Origin: Deltaproteobacteria bacterium | Lineage (GTDB): Bacteria > Desulfobacterota > Binatia > UBA9968 > JAJDTQ01 | Reading direction: 5' to 3' | DNA length: 62,821 bases | Assembly (NCBI GenBank): GCA_028818775.1 | Contig: JAPPNE010000061.1 | Coordinates: forward strand, 1-62,821 | Shown here: in pieces, positions 14,361 to 49,177 of the stretch | How the letters are laid out: each line of letters begins with the position of its first letter | Numbering within the stretch: the first letter of the stretch is position 1 | Notes under the pieces: generated by a model | The model's database searches: none | The model's input: only the letters and a program-made list of their open reading frames with translations | What the model was told of the DNA's origin: nothing | Position numbers and translations under genes: made by a program

Positions 14361-14479
14361 CCGTCATTCCCGGGGAACAGGCTGTGTCAGAACACCATCT
14401 GAGAGAGGCAACAACCCCCTGAATCGTCATTCCCGCGAAAGCTTGCCCTCGACCCCGATCGGGGGCGGGAATCCAGGGG
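14361..14479 (+). repeat. Composite dRS3-like repeat, family 1 (left copy)
   Basis: The copy has two GTCATTCCCG modules. The first continues as GGGAACAGGC-GTGT and the second ends as GGGCGGGAATCCAGGGG, joined by a linker containing GGCAACAACC. An inverted copy lies at 15372-15460, and the second module (55 bases, 14425-14479) is repeated base for base at 18877-18931. ATTCCC-N-GGGAAT cores resemble Neisseria dRS3 elements. Confidence 0.8.
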
Positions 14480-18820: not shown

Positions 18821-18876
18821 GATGTGGCCGGGAGTATAGGCGACGATTCCGGGTGGTGGCAACGGCCACCCTATAC

Positions 18877-18931
18877 CGTCATTCCCGCGAAAGCTTGCCC
18901 TCGACCCCGATCGGGGGCGGGAATCCAGGGG
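18877..18931 (+). repeat. dRS3-like repeat, family 1 (single 55-base module)
   Basis: This is identical over 55 bases to 14425-14479, including the internal CTCGACCCCGATCGGGGGCG. It lies between the divergent synthetase and dehydrogenase genes, where promoters are expected. Confidence 0.85.
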
Positions 18932-43465: not shown

Positions 43466-44002
43466 TCAGTTCAACAGTCTGTTGTTGGCTGTCAGTATGG
43501 TCACTCCTTCTCCGGCGAAGTCCGCGTCGTCCGTCACAAGTTTCAGGAGGTTCCTCTTGCAGGTCTCGCGGATGACTTGATCATTGAAATCCGCCCGACC
43601 GTCTCCATACTCGGCAGTTACCGCGTCCAGGTCAAGTGTGGGGAAGCCACTTTCCACTGGTGAACATTGCCTCAATATGCGCCGTGTGTCGGCGGCGATA
43701 TGGAGAGCGATCGGTTTGAAGGCGTCACTGTTGCGGAAAGCCTTGAAGCTGAATCCGGTCCCCGATTCCTGGTAGTGAAATCTGGCCCAACGATTGATGA
43801 CCTCCGATAGGACGAGCACGTCGATATAGATACGGCACTTTGCCTCCAGGATGCGCCGAAATGCGCTGGAGTAGTAGTGTGTTCTGGGGCCACGACTGGG
43901 CCGTTGTGGTCCATGGATGTACAGCCAAACATTGGCGTCGAGGAACAATTCATCAGCAGACGAAAAACGGTAGTCCCTGACGTGTAAGACCTCACCCGCC
44001 AT
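43466..44002 (-). CDS. PIN-domain nuclease, third gene of the STAS/HATPase module
   Basis: A 178-residue PIN-like protein from the ATG at 44002; a longer reading from 44089 would overlap its upstream neighbour without support. The acidic residues line up with the PIN active site: Leu-Phe-Leu-Asp-Ala-Asn-Val-Trp near residue 20, Val-Leu-Ser-Glu-Val-Ile-Asn-Arg near residue 59, Asp-Phe-Asn-Asp-Gln-Val near residue 138, and Val-Thr-Asp-Asp-Ala-Asp-Phe near residue 158. It starts within the last 11 bases of the STAS-like gene. Unlike VapC it has no antitoxin of the usual kind. GC content is clearly lower than in flanking genes. Control by the two upstream proteins is inferred. Confidence 0.8.
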   Translation of the reverse strand: MAGEVLHVRDYRFSSADELFLDANVWLYIHGPQRPSRGPRTHYYSSAFRRILEAKCRIYIDVLVLSEVINRWARFHYQESGTGFSFKAFRNSDAFKPIALHIAADTRRILRQCSPVESGFPTLDLDAVTAEYGDGRADFNDQVIRETCKRNLLKLVTDDADFAGEGVTILTANNRLLN

Positions 44003-44360
44003 TGTCGTCCTCGCTGTCCAGGGTTTCACGAGCGGCTTGGTTAAATCTCTCAGGGTCTTTGAAGTACAGCTTCGCGGTGTCAACAACACGCTTCAAAAGG
44101 GCAAGATCCTCAGCCTCCATGTCTTCGACGCTAAGCAATTCACGAATCTGGTTCTCTTTGAACTCGCCATACAACTGGCCGATGGCCGTGTTGAGAAAGG
44201 CCGATGTCAGCGTCGAAACATTGAGGAACGAGAGTACGACACGGCGATTCTGCCTGAGCGTGGCGGCTAGCCGGTCATGGACCTTCTGTCCGTCGCCCGA
44301 GGCGACGCACAAGGGGCTGCCGACCACACCGAATACGGATATCGCAACACTTTTGTTCAT
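43992..44360 (-). CDS. STAS-like protein (DUF4325)
   Basis: A 122-residue protein. The centre reads Val-Val-Leu-Ser-Phe-Leu-Asn-Val-Ser-Thr-Leu-Thr-Ser-Ala-Phe-Leu-Asn-Thr-Ala with Ile-Gly-Gln-Leu-Tyr-Gly, the pattern of DUF4325, a family with the STAS fold of anti-anti-sigma factors. The C-terminal 50 residues are charged helices ending in acidic Asp-Ser-Glu-Asp-Asp-Asn. It lies between a HATPase protein (9-base gap) and a PIN nuclease (11-base overlap). A Ser/Thr at the end of strand 3 (Ser-Thr-Leu-Thr-Ser) could be the phosphorylation site used in partner switching; that is inference. Confidence 0.75.
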   Translation of the reverse strand: MNKSVAISVFGVVGSPLCVASGDGQKVHDRLAATLRQNRRVVLSFLNVSTLTSAFLNTAIGQLYGEFKENQIRELLSVEDMEAEDLALLKRVVDTAKLYFKDPERFNQAARETLDSEDDNGG

Positions 44361-44369
44361 CGGAGGACC

Positions 44370-45242
44370 TTAAAAAATGTCGTCTGTCTCAAGTTCGGAG
44401 GAAAGTCTGTAAGAATTCCGATCCGCGGTATCGATTTCCACACTCACAACGGTGCCGGGGAATGCGTTCCTCAGTCGCGCCTTGTTGTTGCGTCGGTTCT
44501 TCCGTCTCCAATAGCCGGCGTCAGACACGATCTGGAGGGAGCCGCCGTTCAAGTCTATGAACTCGCACAGCAATTTCAAACCCAATCCGCCAGGGACATC
44601 TCCTCGTTTGGTCGTGTTGTTTGCCTGGGTGGCCCATTCGATGGCTTCCTCTGGAGCCAAGTCAACTCCGGTATGGCGGTGTACGTTCCGCTGTATCCCT
44701 ACTCCTAAATCGGCCACACAGAAGTCGAGTTTAGATCGGGTTGGAAAAAATTGCCCGCAACTGAAGATGCCCAGTTTGGTCCGGGAATGCAGGACGGCGT
44801 TGCTGAAGATCTCGAAGATGCTTTCGCAGAACTTTTTTCGGAGGCCGGTGGACATCTCCGGTATTTCCGAGCGCTGGATGAATTCGTCCTCAATGTAACG
44901 AGCAAAGTAGCGATCATCGTCAGCGTCGAATCGCTTGTAGGAAATCGTCGTCCCCCAGTGATCAGGAACCTTGGTGCGGCCGTAGTGACTGAGGAAGCCG
45001 TTTTTCGACAGGATGCTTTCGACGGCTGGGCGGATATGGGTCAGGCGGACTGTGTTCAGATTGTCTTCCAGACCGTACAAGATTGCGCCAAGGGCGGCGC
45101 ACATGTCGGCGTCGAGCCAATCCGTCGCGCGCATGTCGATCTCGACATCGTCCAGGAAACAGTCCGCGGTCTGGGCATGAAGACCTGCGAGGACCAAGAA
45201 TCCATGGCGATCGTGGTGGATCGCGGACAGGGGGATTTTCAT
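44370..45242 (-). CDS. STAS-HATPase fusion (GHKL ATPase, anti-sigma kinase-like)
   Basis: A 290-residue protein read from the ATG at 45242 (a GTG at 45281 would overlap pgi). Residues 15-85 resemble a STAS domain (Asp-Trp-Leu-Asp-Ala-Asp-Met-Cys-Ala-Ala-Leu-Gly). Residues 110-270 are a GHKL ATPase: N-box Glu144-Ile-Phe-Ser-Asn148, G1 box Asp178-Leu-Gly-Val-Gly182, and G2 box Gly-Gly-Leu-Gly-Leu near residue 219. No His phosphorylation site is present, so it is like SpoIIAB/RsbW rather than a sensor kinase. It heads a three-gene unit with a STAS-like protein and a PIN nuclease. The base composition is about 50% GC, far below the flanking genes. Confidence 0.8.
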   Translation of the reverse strand: MKIPLSAIHHDRHGFLVLAGLHAQTADCFLDDVEIDMRATDWLDADMCAALGAILYGLEDNLNTVRLTHIRPAVESILSKNGFLSHYGRTKVPDHWGTTISYKRFDADDDRYFARYIEDEFIQRSEIPEMSTGLRKKFCESIFEIFSNAVLHSRTKLGIFSCGQFFPTRSKLDFCVADLGVGIQRNVHRHTGVDLAPEEAIEWATQANNTTKRGDVPGGLGLKLLCEFIDLNGGSLQIVSDAGYWRRKNRRNNKARLRNAFPGTVVSVEIDTADRNSYRLSSELETDDIF

Positions 45243-48473: not shown

Positions 48474-48812
48474 CTATGATTTGGCCGGACGGGCCTCCTT
48501 GTCGAGAGCAGCGATGCCGGTCAACGTAATCGGAGGACGGTCGGGAAACTCTGCCACAAGGCTCAACTTGCCGCCCATCGCTTCAACGTAGCCGCTGAGT
48601 GTGGATATCAGAAGATCGCTGCGCTTCTCGATTCGCGATACGTTTTCCTGCTTGATGCCAAGCTCTTTCGCCACGTGGACCTGAGTCTTCTTTCGCGCCT
48701 TGCGCAGGTCTTGCAAAGACATCTCCTCGGCAATCAGTGCCCTTGCCCGTTCCAGTACCTTCTTTCGCCGGGCTTTGGGGAGTTTCCCGATTCTCTCCGT
48801 CAGGGTCGTCAT
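48474..48812 (-). CDS. higA: HigA-type XRE antitoxin
   Basis: A 112-residue DNA-binding protein. The helix-turn-helix is at Lys-Lys-Thr-Gln-Val-His-Val-Ala-Lys-Glu-Leu-Gly-Ile-Lys-Gln-Glu-Asn-Val-Ser-Arg near residues 41-60, preceded by a helical N terminus and followed by Leu-Ser-Gly-Tyr-Val-Glu-Ala-Met-Gly-Gly-Lys-Leu, typical of HigA. The ATG overlaps the toxin stop by four bases, in the toxin-first order of higBA. The neutralising part is probably N-terminal. It should bind the palindrome in front of higB and repress the operon. Confidence 0.88.
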   Translation of the reverse strand: MTTLTERIGKLPKARRKKVLERARALIAEEMSLQDLRKARKKTQVHVAKELGIKQENVSRIEKRSDLLISTLSGYVEAMGGKLSLVAEFPDRPPITLTGIAALDKEARPAKS

Positions 48813-49177
48813 CGCGACCTCCTTCCGCGTTTCAGCCGGTCCAAATGAGCATCGAACCTTTCGTCGGCTTTCTTGATCAGTGCCGTGTAAAAGCGTCTTG
48901 CCTTCACACCTGACTTGTCGCCGGCCACCAGGACGATGGCTTGCCGCCGGGGATCAAACGCAAAAGCGACTCTCCAAACCCCCTTGTCGGCCTGAAAGCG
49001 CAACTCCTTCATGTTCGCGTGTCGCGATCCCTTCAAGGTGTCTACCCGCGGCCGACCCAATGCCGGGCCCAACGCCTCGATGAGTTTCGCCTGTGCGAGC
49101 AGTTCATCCTGTACCAGAACCGGGAGGGCATCGAATTCCGGGTCGAAAGCTGGGTCGAATTCGACTTTCCACGCCAT
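48809..49177 (-). CDS. higB: HigB/RelE-type mRNA interferase toxin
   Basis: A 122-residue protein of the phage Gp49-like (HigB) family. It has Val-Asp-Thr-Leu-Lys-Gly-Ser-Arg-His-Ala-Asn-Met-Lys-Glu-Leu-Arg-Phe, the central Gly-Val-Trp-Arg-Val-Ala-Phe-Ala-Phe-Asp-Pro and Ala-Ile-Val-Leu-Val-Ala-Gly-Asp-Lys, which form the RelE-like beta-sheet and catalytic basic residues. It cleaves mRNA on the ribosome when freed. It is the first gene of the operon; the start codon lies only five bases from the -10 box, so the transcript appears leaderless. Base composition is lower in GC than the flanks. Confidence 0.88.
   Translation of the reverse strand: MAWKVEFDPAFDPEFDALPVLVQDELLAQAKLIEALGPALGRPRVDTLKGSRHANMKELRFQADKGVWRVAFAFDPRRQAIVLVAGDKSGVKARRFYTALIKKADERFDAHLDRLKRGRRSR

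Follow-up and report, generated by a model that had tools for sequence, protein, structure and literature searches.

We show that a compact, low-GC locus between two housekeeping genes of an uncultured lineage is a vapKSC operon, a kind already published by Chambers et al. (EMBO J, 9 June 2026; PMC13373217), of which this copy is new. A recently described kinase-gated toxin-antitoxin and anti-phage system is thereby placed in an uncultured lineage. What is new in this analysis is that the predicted phosphosite of the antitoxin VapS is kept alongside an intact kinase and lost in old kinase-free pairs, a pattern across homologs that supports the proposed switch.

In Escherichia, the kinase VapK is modelled to phosphorylate VapS and thereby release the RNase toxin VapC. 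VapC is toxic and VapS neutralises it; the phosphomimetic S48E substitution in VapS abolishes VapC binding and neutralisation, and VapC D28A abolishes toxicity. The operon confers about 2-log phage protection, which requires VapC D28, VapS S48 and VapK F54, and PDB entry 9Z7O is the structure of the VapS-VapC complex (PMC13373217).

The locus and its neighbourhood

The window, the whole stretch of 62,821 nucleotides that was analysed, carries three minus-strand open reading frames, in transcript order 44370-45242 (vapK, P0001, 290 aa), 43992-44360 (vapS, P0002, 122 aa) and 43466-44002 (vapC, P0003, 178 aa); all features of these genes given below are on the same strand. VapK and vapS are separated by 9 bases, and vapS and vapC overlap by 11, so that the tight packing described in a sequence-only reading of the locus was correct to the base. 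The same reading had placed the GC content below that of pgi and sdaA, as we find: the three frames have 54.8, 55.0 and 54.7% GC (54.9% for the module) versus 67.6% for pgi, 69.6% for sdaA and 66.4% for the window, in which the module is the lowest-GC stretch of 1.8 kb.

The flanking housekeeping genes lie close, with 35 nt between the pgi stop and the vapK start and 54 nt between the end of vapC and sdaA. Since all three genes are oriented like pgi, co-transcription with it is possible. A scan for promoters and terminators returned three sites against 0.6 expected, all weak, and no terminator; Rfam and NCBIfam gave nothing useful, and no recognised defence gene was present among the ten neighbouring proteins scanned. 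A HigBA-like toxin-antitoxin pair (Gp49 and HTH_3; 48474-49177, GC 57-58%) lies 3 kb from vapKSC. A repeat of about 60 bp, whose dispersed copies share 90-97% identity, occurs at window positions 14417-14477 and 18864-18929, in L043 (1367-1431) and L044 (1352-1416), and also ahead of sdaA in other genomes of the genus.

What lies downstream of pgi varies within this genus. Besides the window genome, vapKSC occurs there in G007, the closest relative, whose VapK has lost residues 111-195 and carries a frameshift (locus L002). At this site G004 has 39 bp that are 92% identical to vapS (window 44190-44228), after which come an HTH-ImmA/IrrE-like gene and then sdaA; the short vapS match suggests that a former vapKSC was lost. 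An HTH-ImmA/IrrE-like gene also precedes sdaA in G005, a DNA-methylase-like gene occupies the vapKSC side of pgi in G001, and other housekeeping genes are found in G003.

VapK is a STAS-GHKL kinase

P0001 is 29% identical to E. coli VapK over its length. Its AlphaFold model (pLDDT 88.8, pTM 0.87) has a STAS domain at about residues 2-105 followed by a GHKL domain, and in a structure search its first three PDB matches are SpoIIAB in complexes with sigma-F and with SpoIIAA. All 20 homologs compared share the residues E144, N148, D178, G180, G182, G218, G219 and G221; E144 and N148 of the N-box (codons within 44799..44813), which provide Mg/ATP-binding and catalytic residues of the GHKL fold, are also present in E. 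coli VapK. Despite a sub-threshold Pfam HATPase_c match (17.1 bits against a cut-off of 26.4; E=0.008), these invariant residues, the model and the SpoIIAB matches make the GHKL assignment firm, and the earlier description of this gene as STAS-like residues followed by GHKL boxes (Glu144/Asn148, Asp178, Gly218-221) holds. P0001 also resembles DrmA weakly in PADLOC, but over its GHKL part alone, and this match was rejected.

W42 of VapK (codon 45117..45119) falls in the alignment column of Escherichia VapK F54 and CapK W68, and is the putative ssDNA-stacking aromatic. It aligns with F49 of the annotated E. coli VapK frame, which would be the F54 of the published strain if translation starts at an in-frame ATG five codons upstream. 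An earlier candidate, the L43 column (Leu here, Phe in most homologs), would have implied loss of the sensor and was rejected after E. coli VapK had been recovered.

The identity of the contact residue bears on what activates the kinase. It is improbable, though the most serious of the alternatives we considered, that VapK responds to something other than ssDNA, such as another nucleic acid, a phage protein or a nucleotide state, with the steps from VapK through VapS to VapC otherwise unchanged. ssDNA activation has been measured for CapK only; Escherichia VapK was insoluble, and its kinase activity and ssDNA activation were inferred from CapK, modelling and mutants (PMC13373217). The residue also varies, Trp here and Phe in Escherichia. 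Against such a different trigger, the column is Trp in 24 of 24 homologs and still aromatic (Phe) in E. coli, and VapK F54A loses phage protection in Escherichia (PMC13373217). We infer that ssDNA is the trigger of this VapK.

VapS and VapC match the structurally characterized pair

The second protein belongs to the DUF4325 family (Pfam PF14213, E=2.7e-15, above cut-off) and matches Escherichia VapS (9z7o_A) with E=2.7e-14 in a PDB sequence search; a match to VapS with profile A1 is circular, as A1 includes a 9z7o fragment. S53 of VapS (codon 44202..44204) aligns with Escherichia S48 and is the predicted phosphosite, and residues of about 94-122 align with the C-terminal region of Escherichia VapS (94-116), which follows the STAS domain. 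The third protein is a PIN-domain RNase (Pfam PIN, E=1.4e-6, above cut-off) that matches Escherichia VapC (9z7o_C) with E=0.012 by sequence and 1.3e-11 by profile, the profile in question (A3) holding no Escherichia VapC. Its residues D22, E67, D138, D141, D159 and D161 are invariant, and D22 (codon 43937..43939) corresponds to the catalytic D28 of Escherichia. Identity to the Escherichia proteins is about 30% for VapS and about 20% for VapC. Both a STAS-like second gene and a third gene with the acidic residues of a PIN domain had been recognised from the letters alone; loss of those residues in homologs, which would have spoken against the proposed switch on a ribonuclease, was looked for and conservation was found instead.

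A kinase paired with a STAS protein recalls CapK and CapS, in which the STAS protein is a substrate of a STAS-GHKL kinase and transcription is repressed (PMC13373217), and the gene order here would be compatible with a repressor switch acting on adjacent genes and carrying the PIN gene as mere cargo. We give this reading very little credence, less than any other. An N-terminal HTH is part of CapK and a C-terminal wHTH part of CapS, whereas P0001 begins with STAS and neither P0001 nor P0002 has an HTH match in Pfam; the partner in the window is a nuclease; and the structure known for the family of P0002, a DUF4325 protein of 122 aa, shows the antitoxin bound to VapC (9z7o). When CapK-like proteins were sought to fix the register of the ssDNA-contact column, the VapK profile recovered other GHKL/STAS architectures from 369 gammaproteobacteria, and no clear CapK.

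The VapKSC assignment rests instead on a shared gene order, a STAS-GHKL kinase with an aromatic at the ssDNA-contact column, a DUF4325 STAS antitoxin with the conserved Ser and C-terminal tail, and a PIN toxin with the same acidic site. The window copy differs from the Escherichia system in its host (a record from the same genus carries the annotation Candidatus Binatia), in its identity of only about 20-30%, in having Trp rather than Phe at the contact site, and in lying between pgi and sdaA, whereas the copy in E. coli JNE25-001 adjoins phage genes. Like SpoIIAB/SpoIIAA and RsbW/RsbV, VapKSC sets a GHKL kinase on a STAS Ser, SpoIIAB supplying the top structural matches of the VapK model; unlike in those sigma switches, there is no sigma-factor gene in the operon, and an RNase is bound by the STAS protein instead. 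VapBC likewise pairs a PIN RNase toxin with a small antitoxin that neutralises it, but the antitoxin here is a DUF4325/STAS protein, not a DNA-binding VapB, and a kinase is the third gene.

A probable phosphorylation-gated toxin

The VapKSC switch is very probably the right account of this locus, and we infer from homology that this copy behaves as Escherichia VapKSC does. At rest, VapS would bind VapC via its STAS domain, with the C-terminal tail of VapS at the PIN active site, keeping the RNase silent. ssDNA arising from DNA damage or phage infection would bind to VapK between its STAS domain and its GHKL domain, stacking on W42, and would switch the kinase on. VapK would then phosphorylate VapS at S53, phospho-VapS would drop VapC, and the freed toxin would cut RNA, presumably rRNA or tRNA, stop growth and limit phage spread. 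Our support for this account comes from gene content, homology, diagnostic residues, the VapK fold, the conserved neighbourhood and the coupled loss of kinase and phosphosite; counting against it are the low identity to the tested Escherichia proteins, the values being those given above for each protein, the broken VapK of G007, the lack of a recognised defence gene among the ten neighbouring proteins scanned, and the small number of old losses, two, behind the phosphosite coupling.

The sequence-only reading had suggested that partner switching might control a ribonuclease in a toxin-like or anti-phage module not of the usual two-gene kind. Control of an RNase by a kinase and a STAS protein is supported, as in Escherichia vapKSC, but the switch would be a phosphorylation-triggered release of toxin and need not involve an exchange of VapK between two partners. 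The homologous operon of Escherichia has a demonstrated toxic and anti-phage function (PMC13373217), and the triplet of kinase, STAS antitoxin and PIN toxin is, as there, not the usual pair.

Loss of the kinase and of the predicted phosphosite

The phosphosite is Ser (38 loci) or Thr (5) in all 43 non-redundant loci in which VapK and VapC are both intact. Four VapS-VapC loci lack the kinase, and at these the site is Gly (L009), Ala (L132 and L133) or Ser (L115). A Fisher test done by hand on 0/43 versus 3/4 gives p ~2.5e-4 (0.003 by events), L132 and L133 being from one genus, so that the four loci count as three loss events, two of them with the site lost, and the coupling is based on two independent old losses. 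Because L009, L132/L133 and L115 are nested inside kinase-bearing clades (local support 0.68-1.0), they represent kinase losses, and as read from the tree L009 and L132/L133 are two independent old ones. L115 is nearly identical to kinase-bearing relatives, which points to a recent loss with the Ser still kept. Where the kinase is broken but present (L002, L004, L014 and L028), the VapS Ser is kept as well.

Searching the whole of the four kinase-free genomes, two of them incomplete, turned up no intact VapK at another place; in G1202 a VapK fragment of 180 aa lies on a different contig. L009 is flanked by a type III methyltransferase gene and a PD-T4-4_A/PDC-M47A-like AAA gene, L132 and L133 adjoin tilS, and L115/L145 follows genes that, by eye, resemble type I restriction genes.

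On evolutionary grounds, and separately from the mutants already published, this pattern across phyla supports the phosphorylation step that biochemistry could not demonstrate for VapK. It is tempting to go further and propose that VapS-VapC repeatedly sheds its kinase, after which the phosphosite decays from Ser to Gly or Ala and leaves a stable kinase-free pair that is switched otherwise. We hold this tentatively, at a little short of an even chance; if true, kinase-free VapS-VapC would be a distinct two-gene variant, and the sequence pattern would independently back the three-gene phospho-switch. The kinase-free derivative is the least-known part of the system.

The existence of such pairs, and the broken VapK of the closest relative, also give some room to the view that the locus is a plain two-gene VapS-VapC toxin-antitoxin serving element maintenance, with a vestigial VapK. 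This is very unlikely for the window copy, as all catalytic residues are present in a VapK of full length and its VapS keeps the phosphosite. Since the VapK of the same-genus G007 is broken, kinase control is nevertheless dispensable in some lineages.

Distribution and related architectures

A scan of genome contigs with VapS identified 27 loci in many different phyla, and at nearly all of these vapK lies upstream and vapC downstream of vapS. A conserved gene neighbourhood, which the earlier reading had proposed to look for, thus exists, and as many phyla share the triplet in this order it is evidently not a chance arrangement. At one locus the order is rearranged to VapS-VapC-VapK, with the kinase downstream (L008:4980-6919). 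One of the 27 belongs to a metagenome-assembled genome (MAG) labelled Methanosarcinales (L015), where a binning error is possible. Among sampled genomes, VapS was present in 3/369 Gammaproteobacteria; by phylum, the figures were 3/384 for that of Treponema, 27/386 for that of a Bacteroidales MAG and 12/385 for that of the window, the lowest-scoring matches in these samples being distant relatives.

The E. coli operon was recovered by back-translating a VapS fragment and searching E. coli genomes, 2 of 5,426 of which carry vapKSC (L095 and L096), with mntR and phage tail genes next to it. In E. coli JNE25-001 (L095, 976833-989132), the operon has mntR on one side and phage tail/baseplate genes on the other, apparently at a prophage end. 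Among plasmids the triplet was found only in Deinococcus gobiensis P5; among phages, one unannotated fecal scaffold had a match, and on viral contigs neither P0002 nor Escherichia VapS had a relative.

The window genome also encodes a single-chain fusion of MarR-like HTH, GHKL and DUF4325 domains (343 aa; G000:C84, at about 154 kb; L032:670-1701, plus strand), which looks like a one-protein regulator of the CapK/CapS type. DUF4325 occurs in a similar-sized frame in G003, G005, G007, G041 and G046, and the fusion layout recurs in a gammaproteobacterium (L078). Elsewhere, a GHKL gene overlaps a small STAS gene (L067 and L071), and GHKL-STAS fusions are found in L094 and in L068, the latter following an AAA-type gene and a gene that may be PIN-like. 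In L141 (582-2604), a GHKL and STAS pair is followed directly by a nucleotidyltransferase and HEPN pair of the MNT/HEPN toxin-antitoxin type, perhaps another effector of the same switch.
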